From a virus, in IMG/VR virus record IMGVR_UViG_3300035145_003007, positions 1 through 22,502 of that record: a DNA stretch of 22,502 nucleotides. One strand, given 5' to 3'. A model generated the notes under the pieces. That model was not told the origin of the DNA. It saw only the letters and a program-made list of their open reading frames with translations, and did not search any database. A program made the translations under genes and the position numbers. This document shows, one piece after another, positions 4,807 through 22,502 of the stretch; positions within the stretch are counted from its first letter, which is position 1, and each line of letters opens with the position of its first letter.

Positions 4807-5847
4807 ATGTCAACATTTGTACGCCTAACTACCGACGATATAGTAATTAATACTGAAAAAGTTTCTACTTCTACCTGGAGTAATAACGTTAATAACCTAA
4901 CAACCGCTCATACTTCAAGCACTCAAGCCTCTTTTTCGAGTGCTACATCTAGTGGACAGTTTTACATAGATGTGTATAATGTAGCTACCGATTCTACTTC
5001 AATCACCCCCGAAGTACAGTATTCTGTATCTTATGGACATAAAGCAGGTAGTGGTTCGTTAGATTTTACTAACGAAACAGGATCTTTCGGTTATAGTGCT
5101 ACAAGAGACATATATGGTCAGTATAGATCTTTAGTGTTTGGAACAGAAACTCGTAATTTTACGTTTAATAATCATACACCTAATGATATTTATGTTTTAA
5201 ATGTAGAAAGAGCCCGTTATAAACAAGCTTTAAAACCTGGATCTCTTAATTTTAAAATCAAGAAAGGATCTACTGAACTTTTCCTCACAGACGATTCAGT
5301 TACTACTACCGGTAGTGCAGTTTTAACAAACCTAGGTAGACAATTTAATATAGTATCAGGCTCAAACGGTACAATGTTGGGAACTAATATAACCAGGGTT
5401 ACAGATTCTGGTAGTTATGGATTATTTTACCCAGATGCTGGAGTTATTATTTTAAACCCAGATGCATTAGATGCAGCTACTGCGGATAATGGTTTAAATC
5501 TTGGCACTTCACGTAATAGCAATACTTCGGATAAAAATAACCAAACATTATATAATGCTATTTCTTCATCAGGATACTTTATAGTTGATTCTGAAGAAAC
5601 CATTTCATCTCAATTTTATTTTGTAAGAGCACGGAATAAAGAATTCAATTATTCCACCAATCCTACTTTTATAGATGCAAACGGTAATTTAAATTTTGAC
5701 TCTATGGTAGATGCTCCTAAATCTTATATTACTACTATAGGATTATATAACGATTCAAACGAACTATTAGCAGTAGCTAAGTTAAGCCAACCTATAACTA
5801 AAGATTTTACTAAAGAAGCTTTAATAAAAGTTAAACTTGATTATTAA
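4807..5847 (+). CDS. Virion structural protein with conserved C-terminal module (short paralogue)
   Basis: 346 residues. Three landmarks recur in the same order in the next, much longer protein: KPGSLNF (about 143-149), YGLFYPDAGVIILNP (204-218) and a C-terminal module with EFNYSTNPTF (279-288) and YITTIGLYNDSNELLAVAKL (307-326). This looks like the compact form of a scaffold that the downstream gene has expanded. I recall the C-terminal module from structural proteins of marine T4-like phages. Its stop shares one base with the next start (TAATG), so translation is probably coupled. It starts 10 bases after the upstream stop, preceded by ATATAAAC and no Shine-Dalgarno. Likely a tail or baseplate protein; assembly position unknown. 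Confidence 0.8.
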   Translation: MSTFVRLTTDDIVINTEKVSTSTWSNNVNNLTTAHTSSTQASFSSATSSGQFYIDVYNVATDSTSITPEVQYSVSYGHKAGSGSLDFTNETGSFGYSATRDIYGQYRSLVFGTETRNFTFNNHTPNDIYVLNVERARYKQALKPGSLNFKIKKGSTELFLTDDSVTTTGSAVLTNLGRQFNIVSGSNGTMLGTNITRVTDSGSYGLFYPDAGVIILNPDALDAATADNGLNLGTSRNSNTSDKNNQTLYNAISSSGYFIVDSEETISSQFYFVRARNKEFNYSTNPTFIDANGNLNFDSMVDAPKSYITTIGLYNDSNELLAVAKLSQPITKDFTKEALIKVKLDY

Positions 5848-8800
5848 TGTTTGTATACAAGAAGCTAAAAGCTTCAGATGCGAGCCGAACTCCATTTGAG
5901 GCTCATAAACAATATGTTATAACAGCTGATAATACCAGCTCGTTAGGTATAGATTTTTTTAGTGCTCGTTTTAGTTCTTCTAGTAAGGATGCATTTTCTT
6001 TAAATGATCCTAATGAAACTAAAAAATACTTTCAATTAGATAAGATTTATTATAATAAAGATTTTGGTAATACTTTAGGTGGGTTAGAATATGAGGACCA
6101 AGATACACGTCTATATAAGGAATTAAACGTTATATCTATACCTCAAGGATTATTCGGTAGTAGTATCCAAAAAGGAAGCCTTAACTTATTTGAAACATAT
6201 ACAGACGATTCTAAAGGAAATGTTTATAATTCTTCTTTAACTCTTTCAAATTATCCCACAGATAAAGAAAGAGTATTATATATTGCACCTGTTAAAGGGT
6301 TTAAATTAAGTGACCTTAATAGAGATTACAATACAGGATATTCTTTAGTAAATGCCCCTACTACCTTAGATAAGGTTGTATATGATGATTCTCTTTATTT
6401 AAATTCTATAGAATATATTAGTAGTTCTATAACCCACTTACCAGATTTAAACTGCACAGGTATAAATTTAGAAAGTGGTTATGTAAAATCACCCCATTCA
6501 AATAATATAAATTTTGGATCTGGTCAAGATTTTACAATAAGTTTTTATTATAAAACTCCTACTCTTTCAGGAACTAAATACTTAATAGCTAAATCTTATA
6601 GCAAAACCGCTATTAATAGCCCTGAAAGGGGAAATACCAGAACAACAGGCAGCTTACAAGCCACTGAAATAGATGCAGGCCCTTCATACCCATTTGAAAT
6701 TTATCTTACAGATAACCAAATTAATTTTGCTAGAGCCGATCAGGATATAATTTCTTTAGCTACTAGTTCCGCAGTTTTAGATAATAATACTTTATATCAT
6801 ATAGCTTGCGTTAAAACAGGTAGTAATTTGCGCATATATGTAAATGGTAATTTAACGGGTAGTGATAGTGATAGTACTAATATTACTAAAAACAAAGCTA
6901 ATTTATATATAGGTAACAGAGGAGGAACCCGGAGTGAATATACTTCAGCAGGAGGTACTCTTTCACAATTAATGATTTTTAATAAAGGTCTTAATAACAC
7001 ACAAATATCTAATGTTTCCTCTTCTATAACTGGGTTACCTTATATTGGCAATATATTTTATGAAAATGGACTAATAACAATTACTTCACCTAAATATACT
7101 AATAATTTAGGTAATATTAATGAATCTGTAAACTCACAAATCACTATAAGTCCTACATATGGTAGTGAAAACGATTTTGATATAAAATTATTAGAATCCG
7201 AAGGAGCAACAGTATTTAAGTCAACTTTTACAGCATTTAATTCCCAAAGTATAGAGACAAATATCTATAGTGCTACTAATTATGATATTATAGATTTTTC
7301 AAACACAGGAGTTGGCGGAAAACTTGTTTCATCTTCTAATCAAGAAGGAGATTCTACAGTAGGAGAATATTCTTTATTTACAGCACAAGCACCTTTTGAA
7401 AGAGACGAATATTTTACAGCTACAGCTTTTAGTAGTAAATTACTATTTATAGGAGGGGCTTATGGAGTACCAACCTTATATAATCTCTATCCTGGTTATG
7501 TTATTCCTTCTGGATCTACGGGTGGTTTTAACCCAACACCTGTTAGTTCATCTACAATTTCTATAACTTCAAATAGTAGTAAATGGTTAATAAGTGCTTC
7601 AGAATTAACAACAACCCAAAATTTCACAATAAAAGCTAGCGCATCTCAATTTGTAATTGATGAAAGTTTCCCTACCTCTGATTCTTCTATATCAGATACT
7701 GTATTTTCTTATGACCAAAACACAGCAGATTCGGGAGCATTATATATAAACGATTATGTAATTGATGGTTTAGTTCTAACAGGTAGTTTAGAAGATATAC
7801 CTAATTATGCTGGATTTATAAGAAATTTGAGCGGCTTAGCAGGTACTGAAGCTAACGGAGATACACGTATTAGAATACCTGCAACATCGGACTCTGCTAC
7901 TGATGATAGAAGTAACATCCAATTCAGGGAAGGAGGACTTCTTGTAGCAGGTGATAAAAATGATATAAAAATAATTACAGTCCCCAGTGATAATGATATT
8001 TCTATAACTCTAACTATGAGTCCTAAGTTCACAAACAGTGAACCTTTTGCACGGAATGTAACCTATAAAATTCGGTCAGGATCTACTGCTATTGCTTCTA
8101 AAACAGTTAGTATACCTGGTGAAACATCAGTTCCTTTGGCAACTACCCCTTTAACCGTAACACGATTTATAACTGCTAGTGATGAATATGATATGACTAT
8201 AGATATGGGGGGCCGTTTCTCATTAGAAATGACTGAAGCAACTCTTCAAATCACTAGCCAGACTCCTGGACAGGGAAAACGTAATAAAGTAGCACTAATA
8301 AATAATTCTCTAATATTAGATGACCGAGATAATGATAGAACTAAATGTTATACAGTCCAAATAGACGAAATTCATACTAGTGCTTCTAACCAAGCTACGG
8401 GTCCTAATTTTGACTCAATAACTGAAGGAAGCTTAAAAGTAACTTTAGAAAGAGTATTCCAAGGACAAGCTACAACAATTACTAGTTCAATATATGGTCC
8501 AGAAACCGTTTCAGGATCATTTTTTAAGTTTATAAACTTAGACGATATAGATGGTAACGGTACTATAAATACCCACGTAAGTTATTTACGTACTAAAATA
8601 GAATTAATTGATACTTCTTCTCTTAATGTTAATTTAGAAAATCCATTACAGACATTTAGTAATGGCGAGGGATTTTATATTAAAAACTTTAAAGTAAAAG
8701 AGATTAGTGGTTCTTCATCCGCTACTGTATCTGTAAATGTTAGTAGTTTTGATGATTTTACTACAGATGAAGAAATCCCTAATAGGAATACAGCAGGACC

Positions 8801-10673
8801 TTTCCCATATTCAAGTGTAGGTCCCTTTAATATCGATCCTGGAGCAGCACCTAATAACATTATAGTGGGTACTTCAGCATTCCCTCACCCTATTTTAACT
8901 ATTGATGCTACTGGATCCTTAGTAGAAATAGGTGCTACTGCTTCATTAGCGAATGATCCAACTTTAATTAGTGCTAGTTTTTCGGCAACTGCTAGTGAAG
9001 CGGGTGTATATGTTATAAGTGGTTTTATTATAGATAGTAATTTTACCTCTGGTTTCCCCCGATTAAGAATATATTCTGGAAGTACTTTAATTACTTCTTC
9101 TTTTGGAAGCACAGTTGACTTACGAGATAGTAGCCATTCAGATAGATTATCAACTACATCCCGTAGAATAAATCTAACTAGTGATTTACCTGGAGAAAAT
9201 AGTGTGGAATTAGGATACTTACCTGAGGGAGGGCAATTTAAAGTAGAATTAGATGTTGTAGAATCTAATGGCACTACTTTAAAACCTACCCCCTCAAACG
9301 AATCTGCAAGTTATAGTGGTTTAGGTGTTTTTTATCTTACCTCAAGTAACCAACTACGAGATAATATTTCAGCTACACCAAACTTTTTAAATACTTTTAA
9401 CTCTATTCAAATACACAACCCAGATGGAGTTTTCCCCTATACTACAACTACTTCTATTACTGAAAGTTTATTAGGTGCCTCAGGATTTTCTGTAGATGGA
9501 GAATATATAACTGGCCAACTTACAGATAATACTGAATTATTTTTTACATCTTCATTACCTATAACCCAATCTAACCTTTATGAAGCTGTTCCATTTATGG
9601 TTGAAAGAATATATAATTTAGATGCTAATTCACGATATATAATTTCTCAATCTTTAAATTTCAACAGCACAAATGGTAATAAAATAATATGGAGAATAGC
9701 CAGAACTGAAGACGAAGCAACTCCCAATAATTTAACTGAAGCTGTTGATCTTGATTTTATATCTAGTGCTAATAATATATTTTCAACCGAAAACCAGTGG
9801 GTAACAGCTTCAGCCACTATAGATACTACTACAGGTGGAGAATATACAGCACAATTTTTAATATATAATGTAGCAGCTGCACCAACTACTAATGCTACTC
9901 AAGGAGATTTCCTAAAACTAGCCAGTGCCTCTCTACTACAATATTCAGGATCAAACACTATTACTCGTGTAGGTGGTAATAACTTTAGTAATACTAACTT
10001 ACAAAGTATTAAATTAAATAACTCAGGGACCGATACCCTACCTATTAAAGTAGGCGATTCAAACCCACAAACTTACGATGATTTTACATTCGTAGACGCT
10101 AATAATATTACTTTATCTACCCCTATTTTCCTAATAGATAATGGTGAAATAACAGGATCTGAAGGTAATGTTTTTGCTTACTATAAATACACTTCTTCAT
10201 TAAATATAGCTAGTGGATTTGATTTAGATATGGATGGGGGTGTTATATCTAATTTAGGAGATTATCCTAATACTTTTAATATATTAAATGCTTCAAATAA
10301 TACTATGTCTATTAACGATGAAGTATTATTACTAAGTGATACAACAGCTAATGTAGAATATGTAACAGGTGGTAGTATTAGTGATTTTAATTTACAATTT
10401 AAAAACAGTCATTTAATATTTGAACATGAATATCAATGTACTGTATCGGAAGATGAATATAATTTTAGTTTAAACCCAACACTAAGATTAAATAAAGATA
10501 TAGAAGAAGGAGAATTAGCAAACTTTGCAACAGGTTCAAACTTTAAACCATATGTTACAACAGTTGGCTTATATAATGAAGAAGGAGAATTATTAGTAGT
10601 AGGTAAATTAGGACAACCTATGAAAATGAGCAACGAAACAGACACAACATTTATTGTAAGATTTGATACATGA
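5847..10673 (+). CDS. Large tail fibre/adhesin-like structural protein with LamG-like domain
   Basis: 1608 residues, the largest gene here. The N-terminus (MFVYKKLKASD...PFEAHKQY) and landmark QKGSLN (about 109-113) are followed by a LamG/concanavalin-like domain at about 205-395: INFGSGQDFTISFYY, LYHIACVKTGSNLRIYVNG, ANLYIGNRGG and LSQLMIFNKGLN are its typical strands. GNIFYENGLITITSP (401-415) follows. Residues ~420-1500 are Ser/Thr/Asn-rich beta sequence, probably several jelly-roll or Ig-like units, with a Ca-loop-like DIDGNGTI at 900-907. The last ~85 residues repeat the C-terminal module of the preceding 346-aa protein (YVTTVGLYNEEGELLVVGKL). LamG folds often bind glycans, so host-surface recognition is a reasonable inference. 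It overlaps both neighbours by 1 and 4 bases. Confidence 0.85.
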   Translation: MFVYKKLKASDASRTPFEAHKQYVITADNTSSLGIDFFSARFSSSSKDAFSLNDPNETKKYFQLDKIYYNKDFGNTLGGLEYEDQDTRLYKELNVISIPQGLFGSSIQKGSLNLFETYTDDSKGNVYNSSLTLSNYPTDKERVLYIAPVKGFKLSDLNRDYNTGYSLVNAPTTLDKVVYDDSLYLNSIEYISSSITHLPDLNCTGINLESGYVKSPHSNNINFGSGQDFTISFYYKTPTLSGTKYLIAKSYSKTAINSPERGNTRTTGSLQATEIDAGPSYPFEIYLTDNQINFARADQDIISLATSSAVLDNNTLYHIACVKTGSNLRIYVNGNLTGSDSDSTNITKNKANLYIGNRGGTRSEYTSAGGTLSQLMIFNKGLNNTQISNVSSSITGLPYIGNIFYENGLITITSPKYTNNLGNINESVNSQITISPTYGSENDFDIKLLESEGATVFKSTFTAFNSQSIETNIYSATNYDIIDFSNTGVGGKLVSSSNQEGDSTVGEYSLFTAQAPFERDEYFTATAFSSKLLFIGGAYGVPTLYNLYPGYVIPSGSTGGFNPTPVSSSTISITSNSSKWLISASELTTTQNFTIKASASQFVIDESFPTSDSSISDTVFSYDQNTADSGALYINDYVIDGLVLTGSLEDIPNYAGFIRNLSGLAGTEANGDTRIRIPATSDSATDDRSNIQFREGGLLVAGDKNDIKIITVPSDNDISITLTMSPKFTNSEPFARNVTYKIRSGSTAIASKTVSIPGETSVPLATTPLTVTRFITASDEYDMTIDMGGRFSLEMTEATLQITSQTPGQGKRNKVALINNSLILDDRDNDRTKCYTVQIDEIHTSASNQATGPNFDSITEGSLKVTLERVFQGQATTITSSIYGPETVSGSFFKFINLDDIDGNGTINTHVSYLRTKIELIDTSSLNVNLENPLQTFSNGEGFYIKNFKVKEISGSSSATVSVNVSSFDDFTTDEEIPNRNTAGPFPYSSVGPFNIDPGAAPNNIIVGTSAFPHPILTIDATGSLVEIGATASLANDPTLISASFSATASEAGVYVISGFIIDSNFTSGFPRLRIYSGSTLITSSFGSTVDLRDSSHSDRLSTTSRRINLTSDLPGENSVELGYLPEGGQFKVELDVVESNGTTLKPTPSNESASYSGLGVFYLTSSNQLRDNISATPNFLNTFNSIQIHNPDGVFPYTTTTSITESLLGASGFSVDGEYITGQLTDNTELFFTSSLPITQSNLYEAVPFMVERIYNLDANSRYIISQSLNFNSTNGNKIIWRIARTEDEATPNNLTEAVDLDFISSANNIFSTENQWVTASATIDTTTGGEYTAQFLIYNVAAAPTTNATQGDFLKLASASLLQYSGSNTITRVGGNNFSNTNLQSIKLNNSGTDTLPIKVGDSNPQTYDDFTFVDANNITLSTPIFLIDNGEITGSEGNVFAYYKYTSSLNIASGFDLDMDGGVISNLGDYPNTFNILNASNNTMSINDEVLLLSDTTANVEYVTGGSISDFNLQFKNSHLIFEHEYQCTVSEDEYNFSLNPTLRLNKDIEEGELANFATGSNFKPYVTTVGLYNEEGELLVVGKLGQPMKMSNETDTTFIVRFDT

Positions 10674-12050: not shown

Positions 12051-12068
12051 TACAAACTGCAGTTTATA
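12051..12068. repeat. Palindrome just upstream of the mosaic ligase gene
   Basis: AAACTGCAGTTT (12054-12065) is a perfect 12-base palindrome, extending to 12051-12068 with one mismatched pair. It abuts the ATG at 12068 in a 28-base intergenic gap. It could be an operator or a small start-site hairpin, or chance in AT-rich DNA. Confidence 0.3.
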
Positions 12069-15000
12069 TGAAAATAGCCCTTTTACCTGGTGGGTTTAAG
12101 CCTCCCCACCTTGGACATTATAACATGGCAAAATACCTAGCGGATTTTGCAGATAAAGTTATAGTAAGAATAGGGCAAAAAGAAAGAGAAGGTATAGGAC
12201 CTGAATTGGCTTTAGAAGTATGGAATTTTTATAAAGAGTTTGATCCTGACTCACGTGCTAAAAAATTAATTATAAGTGTAGCACAATCGCCTTCTCCTGT
12301 GAAAGACGTATATGATTTTGTAGAAACAATAGCTCCCGAAGGATCTACGGTTATTTTAGGTATGGGTGAAAAAGATGCTAAAGATGGGCGTTATAATAAC
12401 ATCCCTAAATTCGCAGAACCACGTAATATTAAAGCAGAAATCGAACTAGTCCCACCCCAAGCTGGTGGGATTTCAGGTACTCGTATGAGGGAAATTATTA
12501 AATCTAACAATAAAGAAGAGTTTTTTAAATATATTCCTGACTTTTTACCTGAAGAAATTAAAGAAGAACTTTGGACCAAATTAGTAGATAGTACTATGCC
12601 TACTGAAGTAGATGAAATGATGATGGGTACTATGAATAGAGAGGAAATGGCTAAGCATAACGCCAATATGAAAAAATTACGTAAATTCTTCTCTAAACAG
12701 GGTGATCAAATGTATCAAATTCCCGATAAATTAACTAAGGGATTACGCAGAAAATTATATGAGGGCAGTAAATATGATGAAGGTACTGTAAAGATACAAC
12801 GTCTTATATTTACTGAATTTAAAGACCAATTAGGTAAATCTTTTAAAAATAAAGAATGGTCTGAATATTGGTTAGAGGGACCAGAGTATGTAGTATTTTT
12901 TGATATAGGTGTAGAATTTGTACCTAAAAAAATGTTAATCCCCTACTCTATAGCAGGTGATGCTGGCGAGGATGATATACAAATCAAAATTATTTATAAT
13001 CCAGAATCATTCCCTGAATCATTTAACGATCTTAACGCAGAAATCAAAGAAACGGTAAGACACGAATTAGAACATCTAGCTCAATATAACTTTCCTAATA
13101 AAGAATCATTTGAAAAATATAAAGGTAAAATACCATTCTACAAGTATCTTACTTTAAACCATGAAACTCCAGCATTTGTTAGAGGTTTAAATAAAAGAGC
13201 TAAATTTAAAAAAATTAGTTTAAGTGATGCTTTTGAAGAGTTTTTTGATGATTTTGTAGATCAATTTAAAAGCGAAGACGAAATTAATACTGTAAGACAA
13301 ACTTGGACTAATTATGCTCAGGAAAATTTACCAGGGGTTAAATTAAATGAAAAATTAACTATAGGAAATAAAGTAGTAAAAACTATTCATACAAATGGTT
13401 CAGACAATCCTGAAGATCATGAAATTGAATTTGAAGATGGTACTAGAGAACCCTATTTAAATCACTTAAAAGAAGGTGATACCTATGAAAAAATGGCTGC
13501 TAAAGGTAAAAAAGCAGGTAATTTAAAACAGGGCACCGTTAGAAAACGTTTAAATATTCCTAAAGGCGAAAAAATACCTTTATCATTAATTAATAAAGAA
13601 TTATCACGTCTTAAAAAAATGGAAAAGCGAAGTGCTAAAAACCAAAAATATTATAAAGCACTTACATTAGCTAAAACATTAAAGACTACAACTAATGTTA
13701 ATGAAAATATAGATCTTAAAGACTTTACATACTTTGAAACAAATCAAGGATCTAAATATGTTAGAAAAAATTCTACAAGCCAACTAAGAAGAATTAAATC
13801 TCACCACGCTAATACAGGGGGAGAAGATGCTGGTTTACATGGTTGGAGCCAACAATCTATGTTTGTAGATCCTAAATTTGATAAAGAAGCAAACGCTGTA
13901 CAATTTTTAATAGGAAAAGGATTTAAACAAATAGCTTTATCTAAAACCCAAGATAGTAAAATGGTTTTACTTATTCCTAAAGATAATAAGTGGGTTCCTG
14001 CTACTTGGGGGGATGCATATCCTAATTTTGTCAAAAATAAACCCGAATATCAAACAAAGCCTTTAGCGTGGGAATATAGTAAAGAACCCACTATGGGACA
14101 CCATGTGGTAGATTTTGATATAAATTCAAATAAAACTATTAAAGGGTGGCATTTTGGTAGTCCTGTATCTAAAATAGGCCCTTTAAGTGATGAAGATGCT
14201 AAGTTATTTAAACTTAAAGAAAACTTCCCACCATATAAAGCAAATCAAGTCCAACAAACTAGATATAAAGCAAGCGATACATTTACAAACGATCGTAAAA
14301 AAGCTAAAAAATTAGGCTACCTACAGGAAAAAGACCCTAAAACAGGCACAGGTAAAAAACCAAAAGGATCAGGACGCCGCTTATATACTGACGAAAATCC
14401 GAAAGACACCGTTAGTATTAAATTTAGCACTAGACAAGATATAGTTGATACTTTATCTAAAAAGTCATTTAAATCTAAATCCCACGCACGTCAGTCACAA
14501 ATTATTAATTTAATTCACCAACGTGTTAGAGCAGCACATGGTAGAGCTAAAGATCCCGCTGTTAAAAAACGCTTAAAATCAGCTTTAAACTATATTACTA
14601 AGCGTAAAGAAGCATCAAAAAGAAAAACACAAAGAATGAGAAAAGAAGGATTATTCTCACAAGAATGGTGGTTAGATATAATCACTGAAGAGATATTATA
14701 TGAGGGGGGTGCCGCAGGGCATATGGCACATCCATTTGATTTACCCCAAGTAAAAACAGGTAGAGATTTAATTAAATCATTTGAACAAGCTGCGGATAGT
14801 TTAGAAAAACAACCTGGTAGCGTTAAAATAGATGGCGTAAATGCGTCAATTAGATTAATAAATAACGCAGGTAAACGCCAGTTCGCCATGGACCGTGGCT
14901 CAAAAAAGGCACTTGATTTAAAGGGCGTTACTAAAGCTGATTTAGAAGCTAGATTTGGAGCTGGTCACGGTATGATTAAAGCCGGCGGCGATGTATTGGA

Positions 15001-15769
15001 TATATTTAACGCAGCTTTACCATCAATTGAAGAAGAATTAACCGCACTCGGGTTATGGGATGATCCAAATGTTATGTTTAACATGGAGTATGTTAGTGGT
15101 AAGTCAAATGTACAAGATTATGGTAAAAATTTCTTAGCAATTCACGGTTTACTAAGTGTAGAAACTAAAGAAGTACAAGGAGCTCGCAAAATGCTTACAA
15201 AACGTATTACTTCTGAAAAAGGATTTGCACAAAGTGACATGGATGAGTTACTTAAAAAATTAGAACCATTTGCTAAAAAGAAAGGATTCGAAATTTATGG
15301 ATCTGTTCCCACTACATTTACTAAAAAACCAGATTTTAAGTCTGTTTTAGGAAAATCATATAAAATTGAATTTGCTGAGGGAGCTAAAGTTAAATCATTA
15401 GCTCAATGGTTAAATGATGTTACTAGTATTCCCGCAGAAGACCGCATTCAAATGAACTTAGAAACTGGAGGCACCAAAGACGTTGGGGCATTAAGTAAAC
15501 AAGTGTATTTCGCAATATTTGGCGGTGAAACCGTAGATGATTTATTTGATAACGAACAAGATATTCAAAAAGCTATTCAAGGAGCTATAACATATCTTGC
15601 AACTGAAAAATTAGGTGATGCAATATTAGATGTACTTGATTCACCAATGGGTTCTGTAAATGATCATGAAGGTGTAGTTATACGTGATCCTAAAATTTCA
15701 AACCGCCCATTCAAAATCACAGGTAAATTTATAACCGGTGGTGTATCTTCACAATTCCAAGCAAAATGA
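12068..15769 (+). CDS. Mosaic nucleotidyltransferase / HExxH / ATP-ligase-like protein
   Basis: 1233 residues with several domains. Residues 1-175: cytidylyltransferase-like fold with GGFKPPHLGH (8-17) and ISGTRMR (135-141), the HxGH and ISSTxxR signatures of adenylyl/cytidylyltransferases such as NMN adenylyltransferase. About 240-425: zincin-like domain with HELEH (332-336) and possible third ligand Glu366. About 430-545 and 735-860: basic, Lys/Arg-rich modules of unknown role. About 880-1230: covalent nucleotidyltransferase domain with motif I KIDG (920-923, Lys920 the presumed nucleotidyl acceptor), FNMEYVSG (1004-1011), motif IV EGVVIRD (1201-1207) and motif V FKITGK (1215-1220), as in ATP-dependent DNA/RNA ligases. 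Substrates are unknown. The frame is continuous, so this is one long product unless it is processed. Its stop overlaps the HD gene start. Confidence 0.82.
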   Translation: MKIALLPGGFKPPHLGHYNMAKYLADFADKVIVRIGQKEREGIGPELALEVWNFYKEFDPDSRAKKLIISVAQSPSPVKDVYDFVETIAPEGSTVILGMGEKDAKDGRYNNIPKFAEPRNIKAEIELVPPQAGGISGTRMREIIKSNNKEEFFKYIPDFLPEEIKEELWTKLVDSTMPTEVDEMMMGTMNREEMAKHNANMKKLRKFFSKQGDQMYQIPDKLTKGLRRKLYEGSKYDEGTVKIQRLIFTEFKDQLGKSFKNKEWSEYWLEGPEYVVFFDIGVEFVPKKMLIPYSIAGDAGEDDIQIKIIYNPESFPESFNDLNAEIKETVRHELEHLAQYNFPNKESFEKYKGKIPFYKYLTLNHETPAFVRGLNKRAKFKKISLSDAFEEFFDDFVDQFKSEDEINTVRQTWTNYAQENLPGVKLNEKLTIGNKVVKTIHTNGSDNPEDHEIEFEDGTREPYLNHLKEGDTYEKMAAKGKKAGNLKQGTVRKRLNIPKGEKIPLSLINKELSRLKKMEKRSAKNQKYYKALTLAKTLKTTTNVNENIDLKDFTYFETNQGSKYVRKNSTSQLRRIKSHHANTGGEDAGLHGWSQQSMFVDPKFDKEANAVQFLIGKGFKQIALSKTQDSKMVLLIPKDNKWVPATWGDAYPNFVKNKPEYQTKPLAWEYSKEPTMGHHVVDFDINSNKTIKGWHFGSPVSKIGPLSDEDAKLFKLKENFPPYKANQVQQTRYKASDTFTNDRKKAKKLGYLQEKDPKTGTGKKPKGSGRRLYTDENPKDTVSIKFSTRQDIVDTLSKKSFKSKSHARQSQIINLIHQRVRAAHGRAKDPAVKKRLKSALNYITKRKEASKRKTQRMRKEGLFSQEWWLDIITEEILYEGGAAGHMAHPFDLPQVKTGRDLIKSFEQAADSLEKQPGSVKIDGVNASIRLINNAGKRQFAMDRGSKKALDLKGVTKADLEARFGAGHGMIKAGGDVLDIFNAALPSIEEELTALGLWDDPNVMFNMEYVSGKSNVQDYGKNFLAIHGLLSVETKEVQGARKMLTKRITSEKGFAQSDMDELLKKLEPFAKKKGFEIYGSVPTTFTKKPDFKSVLGKSYKIEFAEGAKVKSLAQWLNDVTSIPAEDRIQMNLETGGTKDVGALSKQVYFAIFGGETVDDLFDNEQDIQKAIQGAITYLATEKLGDAILDVLDSPMGSVNDHEGVVIRDPKISNRPFKITGKFITGGVSSQFQAK

Positions 15770-16587
15770 ATTTCAGAACATTATATGACCAGTCACCCCC
15801 TGAGTTAAAAAACATAGTAATATCTCAGTGGAAAGCTAAACAAAATTCTAAATACCACCCCGAAGGTAATACCCTAAAACACATTATTACTGTTACTAAT
15901 AGGGCATTTAAACATTTCCCTGATAATCCTCATATTCAATTAGCAGCTTATTTTCATGATTTAGGTAAATTAGCCACTGCAGGTGTTAATCCTAAAACAG
16001 GACAACCAACTGCTTATGGGCATGAAAATGAAGGTGTAGGTTTAGTAGATAAGTATAAAAGTTTTATCACTAAAATGGGTGCTGATCCTGGTATAGTTAG
16101 ATATATTGTTAAAAATCATATGAAAATCAAACCTAGAACTTGGGATGTAATGAGGCAAAAGAAAAAAGATCCTATAATGAATGATCCCTCTTTTGATGAT
16201 TTAATGAAATTTGGTAATATAGATAAAGGAGGTTTAAATCTACAAGAAAAAATGAAATTAAAAGATATATTAAACGAAGTTGAAATCAGTCGCAATATTG
16301 AAATTGATATTGTAGGTAATAATATTATGATAAAACAAGGTGATCGTGTAAATGGTAAACTTGTAAGAATTGACATTGCTTATGTAGGAATGTCAGATCG
16401 TATTTATAGAGGGTATTTATTTGTAGATGATGGTGGATCTAGACCACAACAAATAAACCTTGATGGGGGTGAAAGAGGTTTATTTGAATTTTATGATGCT
16501 GTTGGAGCAGGACGTGGGGCTGATGCCAGAGACTTCTTTGCAAAATATGGAGTTAAAATAGGCTTTTCAGAAATGGACGTAAGCTAA
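15766..16587 (+). CDS. HD-domain metal-dependent phosphohydrolase
   Basis: 273 residues. Residues 30-160 carry an HD signature: His31 or His39, His64-Asp65 in AAYFHDLGKLA, His86 (GHENEG), His118 (KNHMK) and Asp153 in FGNIDKGG. This order resembles the HD domain attached to bacterial CCA-adding enzymes, which in E. coli has phosphatase and 2',3'-cyclic phosphodiesterase activity. Residues ~172-273 are a separate beta-rich C-terminal region I do not recognise, starting just after ILNE (168-171). The ATG overlaps the ligase-like gene's stop as ATGA, so the two are probably co-translated. End-trimming of RNA or nucleotides is a plausible role; the substrate cannot be read from the sequence. Confidence 0.8.
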   Translation: MNFRTLYDQSPPELKNIVISQWKAKQNSKYHPEGNTLKHIITVTNRAFKHFPDNPHIQLAAYFHDLGKLATAGVNPKTGQPTAYGHENEGVGLVDKYKSFITKMGADPGIVRYIVKNHMKIKPRTWDVMRQKKKDPIMNDPSFDDLMKFGNIDKGGLNLQEKMKLKDILNEVEISRNIEIDIVGNNIMIKQGDRVNGKLVRIDIAYVGMSDRIYRGYLFVDDGGSRPQQINLDGGERGLFEFYDAVGAGRGADARDFFAKYGVKIGFSEMDVS

Positions 16588-16960: not shown

Positions 16961-17554
16961 ATGTTAAATAAAGAATTTAAAAGAAAAGATGTAGAACGGA
17001 TGCGTAATCTGATTAAAGGTAAATCAGGTGAATCCGCAGAGGTACAAGTTGGTTATTCTTCTAAAAAAGAAGACTATAAAGAAGGGGATATTTGGGAAGA
17101 AAACGGCAAAACTTGGACTATTAAAGATGGCATAAAACAAACTGTTACTAAATTAGATAAGGTTAAAAAAGAGGCTATTATGCCTTTGTTTTGTCCTAAT
17201 TGTAATAATTTAATGAAAAAACGTTTAGACACTAAAATGTATAAAATACATAAAATGTGTTTAGATTGTGTCGTAGACATGGAAGCTAAATTAAAACTTC
17301 AAGGTAAATTTGAAGAGTACGAACGAAATATTATAGCTAATAATGCCCATTCATATTTAGATGATCTTGAACAATATTTATTAGAAGCTATTAATGAATC
17401 TAACACTCAATATGTTTCTGAAAGAGGTGAGGTAGAAAGATGGAAAGGAGGCATAGATAGTGATGAATTTTTAAAACAAATGAAAATTAATTTTTCTGAA
17501 TTTAGAAAACAAGTCGACGACTATAAAAATAACAACACAGATGATAAAGCTTAA
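16961..17554 (+). CDS. Zinc-ribbon phage protein
   Basis: 197 residues. Two CxxC pairs, Cys78/Cys81 (FCPNC) and Cys100/Cys103 (MCLDC), form a likely zinc-binding knuckle. Before it is EGDIWEENGKTWTIKDGIKQ (41-60), a block I recall from conserved proteins of marine T4-like phages. The C-terminal half is charged and predominantly helical, possibly coiled coil. No enzymatic motif was seen. It starts 13 bases after the terminator T-run, preceded by ATATAAAC, and its last 14 bases overlap the next gene. It opens the chain of modular genes, so a structural, head-assembly or regulatory role is possible; the family's function is unknown to me. Confidence 0.75.
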   Translation: MLNKEFKRKDVERMRNLIKGKSGESAEVQVGYSSKKEDYKEGDIWEENGKTWTIKDGIKQTVTKLDKVKKEAIMPLFCPNCNNLMKKRLDTKMYKIHKMCLDCVVDMEAKLKLQGKFEEYERNIIANNAHSYLDDLEQYLLEAINESNTQYVSERGEVERWKGGIDSDEFLKQMKINFSEFRKQVDDYKNNNTDDKA

Positions 17555-18401
17555 AGAACTCTTATTTGGTAAACCTGATTGTGGGTGTGGGTGTGGTAAT
17601 TGTGAAGGTACTAAACTTACTAAACGTGTTAAAATATCTGAAAACCTACAATATCACTTGGATAATAAAATCCCATTAGGTGAATCTATTTTTAGAATCA
17701 GTTCTAATGCACATGTTAAACTATTTGCAGAAACCAGAAAATTATGGGAAGCAGGTAAAATCCAATTATCTGAAGCTGATGAATATTTTATGCATACCGA
17801 TGCTGGTAGGCAGGGTAGATATAAAGGTAAATTAGTCCCTCTTGATTTACCTTATATCCTAAGTGAAAGTGAATTTGAAAATAAACAGATAGAACTTTTA
17901 CAACAAATATTAGACATATTAAAAACCTCTCGTAAAGATGGTGAAGATAGGGAAGAAGACATCGAAGCTTTAGACACTAGCATCGATTACCTTTCTTCCG
18001 CACTTACAGATAAAGATCCACTTAGTATTTCTATTGACCAAGGAATTTTTGGTAAATTAGCTTCGCCTAAAAAGAAATCTGTATCTGAAATTGCTTATAT
18101 TGTAAGCGAAGCTGCTAAAAAGAAAAAGAAAAACCCACCTTTAAATAAACCTAAACGTGGTGGATCTAAAGCTTACTATGTTTATGTAAGAAACCCTAAA
18201 ACTAAAAAAGTTGTAAAGGTATCTTTTGGATCAGGTGGTTTAAGAGCTAAAATTAGTAATAAAAAAGCTGCACAAGCGTTTGCAAAAAGACATGATTGTA
18301 AAAATAAAACTGATAGGACTAAAGCTTCTTATTGGAGCTGCCGATTGCCTCGTTATGCTAAACAGTTGGGTTTGGGAACACCTGCTTCAACGTACTGGTA
18401 A
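17541..18401 (+). CDS. Modular protein with prohead-core-like C-terminal module
   Basis: 286 residues. Order: Cys-rich N-terminus (CGCGCGNC, residues 14-21); a helical region with GESIFRISSN...LWEAGKI and GKLVPLDLPYI (about 47-106) that I associate with marine T4-like phage structural proteins; an acidic coiled-coil-like stretch (110-160); IVSEA followed by a poly-Lys run (187-197); and a basic C-terminal module (about 205-286) containing YYVYVRNPKTKKVVKVSFGS and SYWSCRLPRYAKQLGLG. I recall that last module attached to prohead core or scaffold proteins of cyanophages and related phages. The start lies 14 bases inside the upstream gene. Head-core or internal capsid protein is the best guess; no enzyme motif was seen. 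Confidence 0.72.
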   Translation: MIKLKELLFGKPDCGCGCGNCEGTKLTKRVKISENLQYHLDNKIPLGESIFRISSNAHVKLFAETRKLWEAGKIQLSEADEYFMHTDAGRQGRYKGKLVPLDLPYILSESEFENKQIELLQQILDILKTSRKDGEDREEDIEALDTSIDYLSSALTDKDPLSISIDQGIFGKLASPKKKSVSEIAYIVSEAAKKKKKNPPLNKPKRGGSKAYYVYVRNPKTKKVVKVSFGSGGLRAKISNKKAAQAFAKRHDCKNKTDRTKASYWSCRLPRYAKQLGLGTPASTYW

Positions 18402-18669: not shown

Positions 18670-19267
18670 ATTACCAAAATCTGTAGAAAAAATGGCCCAA
18701 GCATTACCAGATGCTGAGTTTAAAAAACGCTACGGTAAAAATTGGAAATCTGTTAAAATAGCTACAGCACAAAAATTAGCCGAAAATTTTCTTATGGCTG
18801 AAAATTGTGGTTGTAGTGCATGTAATGATGAATTAGAAGAAAAAAAAGCTAAACGAGATAGATGCCTTCGTATAGCTGATCGTAAATTTAAAAAACCCTC
18901 TGCATATAAAAGTGGTGCCGTTGTTAGGTGCCGTAAAGGTAAAATATGGAAGGGGGTTAAAGAAGTTTATAAACAATTAGACGAAAAAGAAAAAGAAACC
19001 CTACGCACTTGGTTTAAACGCCGCGGTGCTCCTGGAAAAACAGGAGGATGGGTTGATTGTAATACTGGCCGAAAAGACCCTAAAACAGGTAAGATGAAAT
19101 ATAAGCCTTGTGGTAGACAAAAGGGAGAAAAACGTGCCAAATACCCCTCATGTAGACCTACACCGGGAAAATGTAAAGATAAGGGTAAAGGTAAAACATG
19201 GGGTAAAACTAAAGAACAAAAAATACGTGAGGTAATCCAAAACGTAATAAAAAATACAATAGCATGA
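18653..19267 (+). CDS. Cys-rich basic modular phage protein
   Basis: 204 residues, rich in Lys and Cys. Order: an N-terminal helical module with [19 protein letters not shown] (23-41); a NCGCSAC cluster (51-57); a module with Cys71, [20 protein letters not shown] (80-99) and Cys93; a helix ending [20 protein letters not shown] (121-140); and a C-terminal Cys module with Cys136, Cys153, Cys167 and Cys174 ([22 protein letters not shown]). I recall the SAYxSGAxVxCRK and GGWVDCNT...CGR...YPxCRPT modules as exchangeable units in large marine phages; their function is unknown. The four Cys of the last module could bind zinc. It overlaps the previous gene by 17 bases and the next as ATGA. Nucleic-acid binding or head packing is inferred from charge. 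Confidence 0.75.
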
Positions 19268-20706
19268 GCTTTTTAGATGAAAAAAAATTAGATCCTGTTG
19301 GTAAGGAAGACGATGATATTAACAACGATGGTAAGGTAGATAAAACAGATAAGTACCTTAAAAATCGTAGAGAAAAAATATCTAAAAACCTTAAGGAAGA
19401 AGACCTTGAAGAGGGTAAATTAAAAAACTTTGTACTAGGTTTAGGATTAAGTGCTGCTGCTCTTGCAGGCATTAGCAATATGAATAATAATGATCCTGTT
19501 GTAAAGCGTTTAAAAGCCGAGTACGAACAAGCTGAACCCGCTAAACAAGATTCTATTAAAAAATTAATAACTAAAAGATTGATTTTTTTAGACACAGGAA
19601 AATTTGATGATAATACACCTATGAAAGAAGATAAAAAAACAGTTGAATTACCAGCCGACACTACATTTACACTTGACCTTAAACACCTTATGAAAAAACA
19701 CCTTGATGAGGGTAAATCACAAGAAGACGTAGTTAAATTAACTAAAGCTTTAATGAAAAAACTTCATGATAAAGGTGAAGTAACAGTTAAAGGTACTAAA
19801 GTGTTATTTAAAGAAAGTGCTGCTTCTAATCTAGAATTAAAATCTTTAGCTAAAAAGATTTATTTAACAATGAAAAAACTTCTCCCGGGTAGAGTACAGT
19901 TAGTAGGTAATGTAAGTACTGCTCCTGATGATACTGGGTGGGGTAAAAGACTAGATGCAGGGAGAGTTGATGATTTAGATAAACCTTATGCCGCTATTTT
20001 TATTAATACATCTAATAATAGGGAAGACAGTGAAGAATCAGTTCATGTACAATTAGGTGCTCCTAAAAAAGAACAAGCCTTAAAAGTTTATAATGATTTA
20101 AAAAGCGCCTACCCTCAGTTTGAATATGAACATGTTCAACAAAAACAAGGTATAGGATGGAGTAGAAATGGTTATTACATACAATGGTTAATTAAACCAG
20201 GTAAAACAACATCTGAGGCAGATGTTCCCCAAGACACCCAACTAGCACTTCCAGAACCACCTGAACAAACTGCAAACTTTTTAGGTGATGATAATATGGA
20301 TTATGAAGGAGGTATGGCAAAATCACAAATGCTCAAAATGAAAAATTACGCTAAAGCATTGTGTGATATGATTGATGATGAAACACAATTAGAATCATGG
20401 GTTCAGGCTAAATTAACTAAAGCATCTGATTATATGTCTTCAGTTTATCATTATTTAGATTATCAACGCACTAAAAATATAAATGAGGCTATAGGAGATG
20501 TAATCCCTGATGGCGAGTGGCAAAAATTAGACATTGAGTGGATAATGGATGAGCCTGATGTAAATAGACCAGACTACCAAGAAGGCCCACTTTTCGGAAC
20601 CACAGCAGATGGTAGAGCGTTTGAATCATATGGTAACTGGACACCATTTGAAGATGAATATCGTCCCTTAAGAGGTGAAGAAGTAATAGAAGTACCCTTA
20701 CCATAA
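19264..20706 (+). CDS. EF-hand-loop modular phage protein
   Basis: 480 residues in several modules. Residues 18-29 form a textbook EF-hand loop (Asp18, Asn20, Asp22, Gly23, Val25, Asp29), likely binding calcium. A hydrophobic helix ([15 protein letters not shown], 56-70) could be membrane-active or buried. Residues 136-184 are a small helical domain ([20 protein letters not shown]...). About 185-315 is a mixed alpha/beta domain. About 346-405 is a helical module ([20 protein letters not shown], then [18 protein letters not shown]) I recall from marine phage proteins. About 411-475 is an acidic C-terminal module. LFKES (181-185) and NINEA (405-409) lie at module edges. It overlaps the next gene by one base (TAATG). 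Probably a head-core or internal virion protein; not proven. Confidence 0.72.
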
Positions 20707-21143
20707 TGGATAAATTAACTGAACAACGGCTAAGACGTAAAATACGTCAAATAATAAGAGAAGAACGTGAGTATGACTTACGTCAATTATCTCCAGGAGC
20801 ATTTAATGCTATAGGACCTGAGACTTTAGGTATTCCTCCCTCAGCTATTGTTGATGTTAAAATTATTAAAGCACCTAAACCAATTTTCAAATGTTTCCTC
20901 GATAATGGGCAATCATTTAACTTAATTGATAATGGTAATTACATGCAAGCTGATATAAATCGTATTTTATTTGATTTAGATAGAGATGACGATTTAAATG
21001 GTGCTAAGTATGAGCTTGAAAAATTAATGCAAAAAGGCAGCATTAAATCAGACGATGAAGAAGCTGCTTCTGATGATTTTGGGGGTGATGAGCCAGCTGC
21101 TGAACCACCTGCTGAAGAACCAGCCGAAGAACCTGAAGTATAA
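20706..21143 (+). CDS. Hypothetical protein with acidic Pro/Ala/Glu tail
   Basis: 145 residues, not recognised. The N-terminus is a basic helix (KLTEQRLRRKIRQIIREE, 3-20), a type of start I have seen on other phage proteins. Residues ~45-110 are a compact alpha/beta region (IVDVKIIKAPKPIFKCFLDN...). The last ~35 residues are acidic and low-complexity (DDEEAASDD, then PAAEPPAEEPAEEPEV), probably disordered. It is joined to both neighbours by one-base TAATG overlaps. A basic head with an acidic tail could suit a scaffold or adaptor, but nothing in the sequence fixes a function. Confidence 0.65.
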   Translation: MDKLTEQRLRRKIRQIIREEREYDLRQLSPGAFNAIGPETLGIPPSAIVDVKIIKAPKPIFKCFLDNGQSFNLIDNGNYMQADINRILFDLDRDDDLNGAKYELEKLMQKGSIKSDDEEAASDDFGGDEPAAEPPAEEPAEEPEV

Positions 21144-21535
21144 TGAATAATAATCCAGAATTTAAACAAGCCTTAGCGGGTATTTACAGAGATGGATGTA
21201 AAAAATTTAACATTCGTAATACTCCTAAACTAATACTTCGCCAGGATGCCGAAAATGGAGAATTAACCTTAGGACGTACTGCATATTACGATCCTAACAA
21301 TTTAACAATTGTTCTTTATACATCAAATCGTCACCCTAAAGACATACTTAGATCATTCGCTCATGAACTAATCCACCACGTACAGAATGAACGGGGTGAT
21401 TTACATTTAGGTGATGCTAGTGATCCCCAATATGCCCAAAATGATGAGCATATGAGAAAAATGGAAAAAGAAGCATATTTGCAAGGTAATTTATTAATGA
21501 GAGACTTTGAAGATAATTTTAAGTACCAGCAATAA
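21143..21535 (+). CDS. Zinc metallopeptidase-like protein (HExxH)
   Basis: 130 residues. FAHELIHHVQNERG carries the zincin motif HELIH (His74, Glu75, His78); Glu110 in MRKMEKEAYLQGN is a good third zinc ligand, a spacing seen in small SprT/IrrE-like and other phage zincins. Preceding strands (TAYYDPNNLTIVLYT, 46-60) resemble the beta hairpin before the active helix in that group. It could cleave phage or host proteins, for example during head maturation, since it closes the modular-protein gene chain. The substrate is unknown. It starts on a one-base overlap with the upstream gene. Confidence 0.75.
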   Translation: MNNNPEFKQALAGIYRDGCKKFNIRNTPKLILRQDAENGELTLGRTAYYDPNNLTIVLYTSNRHPKDILRSFAHELIHHVQNERGDLHLGDASDPQYAQNDEHMRKMEKEAYLQGNLLMRDFEDNFKYQQ

Positions 21536-21658: not shown

Positions 21659-22502
21659 ATGGAAAAAATAGTAATAATCGGAGCCGGAGTAGCGGGCGTA
21701 AACGCTGCAACCAAGTTAGTTGATAATGGTTACCCTGGTAATAAAATCACTATTCTAGATATGGGTAATAATCCTTACCACCGTAAACCAGAGGAAGTAA
21801 TGACAGGTTTTATGGGTGCTGGGGGTTGGAGTGATGGTAAATTAACATACCATACTGCAATCGGTGGTCATATGTCAAAATATTGTGGTGATGAAAAAGC
21901 CATGGAATTAATGGATCAAGTAATTGATAATTTTAGACGATTCCACCCCAAACCAGAAGTTATCCAGTGTTCACATCCAGTAGAGGAACCAGAATTTATT
22001 AAGCCATATTTTGGTTTACGTTTATTTCCTGTATGGCATATTGGAACCGATTACCTACATGAAATAGGTAAGACTTGGTACGATTATCTTTGTGATAAAG
22101 GTGTTAAATTTATTTGGCAAGCTAAAGCTACAGATATTGATTTTAATACTAATACTGTTCATTTTTCTACTCCTGGTATTGATAGTCAAATTACTTATAA
22201 TCGTTTGATCTTTGGTGTTGGTAAGTCTGGAATTGATTTTGGTAAAAAGTTAATTGAAAAAAACGATTTCCCAACAGAGGCTAAACCAGTACAAATTGGT
22301 GTTCGTTTTGAAGCACCACAAAAGCACTTCCAAAAATTGATTGATATCAGCTATGACTTTAAGTTGTATCGTAAATTTGAGGATAAAGGCGTGTCACTTC
22401 GTTCGTTCTGTACTAATAATAATGCGGCATTTGTTGCGGTTGAGGAAACATATGGTGATCACAGTTATAATGGACACGCTAAAAAGGATGAAGCATACCG
22501 AA
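21659..22502 (+). CDS. FAD-dependent dehydrogenase, COG2509-like (3' partial)
   Basis: The frame opens at ATG 21659 and stays open to the right edge (281 residues seen), so the gene is cut. The N-terminus VIIGAGVAGVNAA has the dinucleotide-binding GxGxxG (Gly8, Gly10, Gly13), with Asp34 at the end of the second strand. GAGGWSDGKL (53-62), IGVRFEAP (213-220) and LRSFCTNNNAAFVAVEE (247-263) match the pattern I know from uncharacterised FAD-dependent dehydrogenases of the COG2509 type. It would be a cytoplasmic flavoprotein; the substrate is unknown. It follows a strong terminator and a 27-base A/T-rich gap, so it probably has its own promoter. In a phage this is an unusual, possibly host-derived, metabolic gene. 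Confidence 0.85.
   Translation, partial: MEKIVIIGAGVAGVNAATKLVDNGYPGNKITILDMGNNPYHRKPEEVMTGFMGAGGWSDGKLTYHTAIGGHMSKYCGDEKAMELMDQVIDNFRRFHPKPEVIQCSHPVEEPEFIKPYFGLRLFPVWHIGTDYLHEIGKTWYDYLCDKGVKFIWQAKATDIDFNTNTVHFSTPGIDSQITYNRLIFGVGKSGIDFGKKLIEKNDFPTEAKPVQIGVRFEAPQKHFQKLIDISYDFKLYRKFEDKGVSLRSFCTNNNAAFVAVEETYGDHSYNGHAKKDEAYR

Follow-up and report, generated by a model that had tools for sequence, protein, structure and literature searches.

A phage reading frame with NMNAT-like and RNA-ligase-like ends as a candidate cargo polyprotein cut by the head protease

In phage T4, the prohead protease gp21 cleaves behind L/I-x-E, and the ten N-terminal residues of the internal protein IPIII are enough for packaging into the head (PMC9026906). 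The T4 cargo proteins known so far are packaged one by one. A cytidylyltransferase of cyanophage S-CREM2 (gp154) was detected in virions by mass spectrometry, with table entries of 3 and 11.2 that we read as peptides and percent coverage (PMC10665884). Polyvalent proteins of phages carry several domains in one chain, and the authors who studied them likened them to polyproteins (PMC5512222). Cargos processed singly by gp21 and injected proteins with several domains are each already known; our searches of the open-licence literature turned up no cargo polyprotein cleaved by the prohead protease in T4-like phages.

The window analyzed here is a stretch of viral DNA whose IMG/VR record is complete at 22,502 bases, yet it is a piece of a larger genome. 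A first-pass annotation, made from the letters of the sequence, had described a 1233-residue reading frame (12068 to 15769, plus strand) and a 273-residue frame with an HD domain (15766 to 16587, plus strand), the start of the latter overlapping the stop codon of the former as ATGA. Both are present as described, as are the HLGH, ISGTRMR, KIDG, EYVSG, EGVVIRD and FKITGK motifs. Overlooked at that time were the approximately 700 residues that separate the two end domains, which form a mosaic of shuffled modules. The parts of the longer frame are listed below, with a slash marking a candidate cut here and throughout.

12068 to 15769, plus strand: polyprotein reading frame of 1233 residues, with a constant NMNAT-like N-terminus, variable modules and a constant ligase-like C-terminus
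12068 to 12616, plus strand: HxGH adenylyltransferase domain of the NMNAT/PPAT superfamily by its motifs, residues 1-183, ending in the candidate site VDE
12617 to 12763, plus strand: module 2 (MMMGTMNREEM...KLYE), with VDE/ and LYE/ at its edges
12764 to 13351, plus strand: module 3, HExxH (HELEHLAQY) metallopeptidase-like, with LYE/ and LNE/ at its edges
13352 to 13474, plus strand: module 4 (KLTIGNKVV...HLKE)
13475 to 13705, plus strand: module 5 (GDTYEKMAAKGKKAG...TTTNVNE), immediately preceded by [LIVM]xE in 19 of 20 contexts
13706 to 14221, plus strand: module 6 (NIDLKDFTYFET...FKLKE), also found in locus L004
14222 to 14329, plus strand: module 7 (NFPPYKANQVQQ...GYLQE), immediately preceded by [LIVM]xE in 8 of 12 contexts
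14330 to 14647, plus strand: module 8 (KDPKTGTGKKPKGSGRRLYTDENPKDT...), with at least 594 relatives, and also found as a gene of its own with a leader
14648 to 14704, plus strand: internal element resembling a capsid-targeting leader, GLFSQEWWLDIITEEILYE, ending in the candidate site LYE
14705 to 15766, plus strand: ligase-like covalent nucleotidyltransferase domain, residues 880-1233, by motifs and predicted fold
14825 to 14827, plus strand: codon of Lys920 of KIDG, the predicted nucleotidyl acceptor, invariant

The N-terminal domain carries KPPHLGH at residues 11-17 and ISGTRMR at residues 135-141. Its conserved forms, GGFKPPHxGH and ISGTxxR, agree with the GxFxPxHxGH and ISxTxxR motifs of NMNAT/PPAT-type HxGH adenylyltransferases. 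A Pfam search with the whole frame returned only CTP_transf_like, below threshold, and a profile search of the PDB with the domain retrieved PPAT and archaeal NMNAT (E-values of 5e-4 to 0.02). These motifs and profiles assign the domain to the adenylyltransferases of the NMNAT/PPAT superfamily, which bears out the HxGH nucleotidyltransferase first proposed. NMN is our likeliest guess for its putative substrate, because phage relatives of the domain are annotated as NMNAT. An identification with Namat of NARP1 was considered and dropped, because Namat is described as Nampt-like (PMC12774641).

At the opposite end, the lysine of SVKIDG is residue 920, as had been assigned, and EYVSG, EGVVIRD and FKITGK follow downstream in that order. 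Across 38 relatives, down to 52% identity, the K, D, G and N of KIDGxN, the E and G of EYVxG, the E and G of EGVVIRD and the K of FKITGK are invariant; the motifs are therefore not chance matches. Motifs I (KxDG), III, IV and V, by which covalent nucleotidyltransferases and RNA ligases are recognized, are thus conserved and in order. Viral contigs, when scanned, proved to encode at least 455 relatives of the C-terminal 354 residues, and Pfam, PHROGs and phmmer against the PDB gave no significant sequence match to the domain. An AlphaFold2 model computed from the 38-sequence alignment reached a pLDDT of 90. With this model, Foldseek placed RNA ligases at the top, if weakly (best E-value 3e-3, low TM-scores), and VIA-align ranked T4 RNA ligase 1 (Rnl1) first (Z 9.0, 176 residues, 3.8 Å), followed by Naegleria RNA ligase, the trypanosome editing ligase, tRNA ligases, T4 RNA ligase 2 and DNA ligases. 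Since no rival fold class appears at the top of VIA-align, we accept a covalent nucleotidyltransferase fold for the modeled domain, with RNA ligases first, on the model and VIA-align together, the Foldseek result being weak by itself; the proposed KxDG ligase-like domain thereby gains structural support. If it seals a nucleic acid at all, we infer that this would be RNA rather than DNA. The low Foldseek scores, a motif V in which the second lysine of KxK is not conserved (KIT) and a long insertion between motifs III and IV would also suit some other covalent nucleotidyltransferase, for example a protein-modifying or RNA-capping enzyme. We regard this as possible though less likely than not, given that nearly all of the top VIA-align rows (Z 6-9) are RNA or DNA ligases and that motif I begins with KxDGxN, which we take to resemble Rnl2-type ligases; either identity is compatible with a polyprotein.

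The two ends frame a middle that changes rapidly. In 30 relatives with both ends, the ends are constant and the 200-900 residues in between differ in the order and presence of segments, even where the ligases of two phages are more than 80% identical. The segment corresponding to module 2 recurs in L002, L004, L017, L020 and L030, and module 3 occurs in Flavobacterium phage immuto. Pieces exchanged at other loci include, by Pfam, Fe/Mn superoxide dismutase, plastocyanin-like, GNAT, DUF192, NT5C and PolyA_pol domains. The apparent cargo of the NMNAT-ligase polyprotein at L020 (1431-5660) comprises Fe/Mn superoxide dismutase, plastocyanin-like and GNAT domains, and DUF192 is a module of the NMNAT-ligase polyproteins at L022 (5739-9050) and L030 (4596-9041). 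Of 59 complete frames, 57 retain the NMNAT end in combination with the ligase end, a coupling that had been noted from the window. Polyvalent proteins are recognized by a mosaic architecture that strings several unlike enzymatic domains along a single chain, and the frame has this layout.

The joints between modules share a short motif. The residues immediately before the ligase domain are [LIVM]xE in 63 of 64 non-redundant and otherwise divergent contexts, the exception being a lineage (L058 and relatives) that carries LLC in place of LxE. When the 25 residues before the domain were clustered at 30% identity, 17 of the 18 clusters kept [LIVM]xE, with Glu at -1 in 17/18 and an aliphatic residue at -3 in 18/18; there is a further aliphatic preference at -4, and almost nothing else is fixed. 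A second ligase-like family (GGAYGHMxHPF, KTDG), gathered independently, has [LIVM]xE directly before the domain in 54 of 55 contexts and in 13/13 clusters. The motif also directly precedes the GRYD form of module 3 (8 of 9 contexts) and lies within four residues of one further module (51/63 contexts). Taking the ends of local alignments as homology breakpoints, with no modules defined beforehand, 93 of 203 fell near [LIV]xE, against 33.9 ± 5.2 at random positions (z approximately 11), and in a separate set of 81 proteins 299 of 923 did so, against 129.9 ± 10.0 (z 17); because the sequences share ancestry, these breakpoint and context numbers are descriptive and nominal probabilities overstate their significance, the cluster counts being the safer measure. 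This enrichment was absent for most control motifs: [LIV]xD, [LIV]xK, [AGST]xE and [LIV]xxE did not exceed chance in the first set, and controls ranged between z -4.6 and +4.3 in the second. Some [LIVM]xE motifs lie inside folded domains of the window's frame (residues 101, 142, 328, 989 and 1060), so the motif alone defines no cut.

The same motif ends the leaders of stand-alone genes. Some single genes consist of one of these modules behind a leader of 12-15 residues that ends in [LIV]xE; examples are MISLTKILTEILSE/GDPK, (V)IKLLNILKETLLE/SDPK, MIRLKNILNEVLLKE/GGAYGHM and VNFSEYIELINE/GGAAGHM. Four polyproteins retain a fused leader together with its Met, for example LEE/MKLFSKEWWLDVITEELLNE/GGAAGHM. 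T4 ipII and ipIII start with MKTYQEFIAE (record NC_000866), which the single-module leaders resemble, and the NMNAT-like protein of S-CREM2 begins MKNFSSFLTE/A. As in T4-type internal head proteins, [LIV]xE is thus found at the mature end of leaders and between pieces. A point against such targeting is that the window's frame has the NMNAT domain from Met1 and its leader-like element is internal only, whereas the known T4 leader is N-terminal. A leader is present on only 26 of the 71 NMNAT starts in our set, and at the N-terminus of 24 of the 25 complete frames of the second family.

Could the joints be mere seams? A polyvalent ejection protein might be injected and work uncut, its [LIV]xE joints being flexible linkers or sites of recombination. 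Phage polyvalent proteins with 2-15 domains are known (PMC5512222) and the modules here have clearly recombined, but only the aliphatic-x-Glu pattern is constant, the middle residue and flanks of the motif vary, [LIV]xD, [LIV]xK and [LIV]xQ show no enrichment, and the motif also ends the N-terminal leaders of single-module genes, where there is no seam. We consider an uncut protein quite improbable.

A protease of the expected type is encoded by the relatives. The window, itself a fragment, contains no prohead protease gene; a Peptidase_S77 prohead protease, of the gp21 type, is encoded in 9 of 12 contigs of relatives, and a gp23-like capsid protein in 8 of the 12. The capsid propeptides of the relatives end QLVQE/A, QLVNE/A or QLISE/A, with the cut position inferred from T4. 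Terminase and prohead protease genes are found close to the polyprotein gene of Microcystis phage Mel-JY01 and to that of immuto; a literature search for virion proteomics of immuto yielded nothing usable. Because the specificity of T4 gp21, the leaders, and the protease and capsid genes of the relatives all match, the joint motif points to the prohead protease. With such sites at the joints, the domains of the frame would probably be separated in the capsid.

The gene that follows divides into two parts.

15766 to 16251, plus strand: HD-domain cassette, residues 1-162, inserted relative to locus L002
16252 to 16584, plus strand: small candidate packaged protein with the leader MKLKDILNE/VEISRN, a separate gene in relatives

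The 273-residue frame matches Pfam HD (PF01966) at 6e-5, with 23.7 bits against a cut-off of 22, as an HD phosphohydrolase should. In many close relatives, a small gene starting MKLKDILNE/VEISRN or similar has its ATG overlapping the ligase stop. The window carries the HD domain precisely at this junction, behind the ligase stop and ahead of the small gene's start, to which it is fused in frame (it ends LQEK, followed by MKLKDILNE); position and fusion suggest a cassette gained there, and the HD domain is most simply read as an insertion. A constant partnership of HD and ligase, as the first-pass annotation had proposed, is rejected: none of the 79 relatives fetched (four without downstream sequence) has an HD gene adjoining this ligase. 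The HD relatives themselves (L224-L239) are mostly modules within other polyproteins, several of which, once more with [LIV]xE at their joints, also have a CCA-adding domain (PolyA_pol, 2.9e-30) beside NMNAT-like and ligase-like ones. Among the 25 complete frames of the second family, 20 have an NMNAT, 6 an HD and 6 a CCA-adding domain, and that second phage group joins HD, CCA-adding tRNA nucleotidyltransferase, NMNAT-like and ligase-like domains in one polyprotein. The annotation's own test, that homologous phages might never combine these genes, thus goes against the HD coupling in this ligase family but not in the second. The two families share a GGxxGHMxHPF start and the motif order; their homology is not firmly shown (hhalign E-value 0.007, probability 5%), and the model of the second has a pLDDT of 51.

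These results bear on the reading from which the analysis started, a fused end-healing and sealing enzyme with an HD partner, made during infection as one covalent unit that repairs ends or recycles the ligation cofactor. The ligase fold and motifs, the joint retention of NMNAT and ligase and the combination of HD, CCA-adding enzyme and ligase in the second family fit it. The protease sites at the joints argue against one fused enzyme, as do a middle that varies among close relatives, the lack of an HD gene beside this ligase, and a scan of the proteins that identified no kinase or 3'-phosphatase module. We judge the fused unit improbable. Its RNA-repair idea survives in part, through the polyprotein in which HD, CCA-adding, NMNAT-like and ligase-like domains are brought together.

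We instead think it quite probable that a T4-like phage makes from this frame a cargo polyprotein that is cut by the head protease, packaged and injected. Leaders of the capsid-targeting type would bring the polyprotein into the prohead during head assembly, where the phage's gp21-type protease would cut after [LIV]xE at the module joints. Cleavage would free separate enzymes, namely NMNAT-like, HExxH peptidase-like and RNA-ligase-like proteins along with small basic proteins, which would stay in the capsid and then enter the host with the DNA. NMNAT and ligase would form a constant core, and the middle an exchangeable set gained, lost and shuffled between phages. Together, these enzymes may restore NAD and repair cut RNA early in infection.

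Depletion of NAD is countered by NAD-making enzymes. Phages are known to meet tRNA-cutting defences with CCA-adding enzymes and RNA ligases in combination (PMC7824862). Since HD, CCA-adding enzyme and ligase share one polyprotein in the second family, an injected RNA-repair kit of co-delivered, separated enzymes is plausible, if unproven. In its broader form, which we advance only tentatively, T4-like phages of aquatic bacteria may pack a ready-made, rapidly exchangeable kit for NAD synthesis, cyclic-phosphate opening, CCA restoration and RNA sealing as a cleaved polyprotein, injected with the genome, and so counter tRNA-cutting and NAD-depleting defences ahead of any phage gene expression.

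Three further genes of the window have leader-like or module-like features.

17541 to 18401, plus strand: candidate internal-head protein with a short N-terminal [LIV]xE (MIKLKE...), a weak case
19264 to 20706, plus strand: candidate second polyprotein, with an MSFLDE/ leader and a Ca-binding-like module shared with cyanophage 'cytidyltransferase' proteins
21143 to 21535, plus strand: stand-alone HELIHH peptidase-like protein, fused as a module in polyproteins of immuto, L130 and L136

The frame at 19264-20706 probably encodes a second packaged polyprotein. Its Ca-binding-like module recurs in 224 phage records, most of them from cyanophages; some of these proteins bear the annotation cytidyltransferase. 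Elsewhere in the window, a 1608-residue structural gene (5847-10673) has constant ends and a variable middle, and measures 569 residues in L006 and 555 in L021; the start of an FAD-dependent oxidoreductase gene (21660-22502) is cut by the contig end. In the phage T4 record (L319, 11592-12411), ipI adjoins gene 57B, annotated 'RNA ligase'.

If true, cargos strung together by joints that each bear a site for the head protease would give dsDNA phages a counterpart of viral polyproteins. Such a chain would explain the fast swapping of injected effectors, as any module placed between two [LIV]xE motifs would be packaged and released, and the rule that a module starts right after [LIV]xE could be used to find hitherto unrecognized injected proteins in thousands of uncultured phages. 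Should the core prove to be a kit for RNA repair and NAD, the phage would have a counter-defence that acts ahead of its own transcription.

Among known systems, T4 IPI-IPIII and Alt, processed by gp21 and injected, resemble this locus in their [LIV]xE-ending leaders, the head protease and the expected packaging and injection. They are single cargos, each with its own N-terminal leader, whereas here several cargos follow one another in a chain whose joints each bear a site, around a core of enzymes and with rapid exchange of modules. Polyvalent proteins (Iyer et al. 2017, PMC5512222) share the multi-domain layout, expected injection, and peptidase and nucleotidyltransferase domains, but their release was ascribed to embedded peptidases, in contrast to the prohead-protease motif at the joints and T4-type leaders found here. 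The cyanophage cytidylyltransferases of S-CREM2 (gp154) and Syn19 have an NMNAT-like domain behind a leader (MKNFSSFLTE/ or MKKFSAFLNE/), span 286-386 residues and lack the ligase domain. Closer is WWT39297.1 of Microcystis phage Mel-JY01, with a leader, an NMNAT-like domain and an IAE/GGLGGHMNHPF ligase-like domain with KLDG; at 639 residues it lacks the variable middle, and its ligase is nearer the second family. Finally, T4 Rnl1 and Pnkp and the RNA repair enzymes of jumbo phages (PMC7824862) correspond in the RNA-ligase-like fold and in the CCA-adding nucleotidyltransferases of related polyproteins, but were described as separate genes and not as modules of a polyprotein packaged in the virion.
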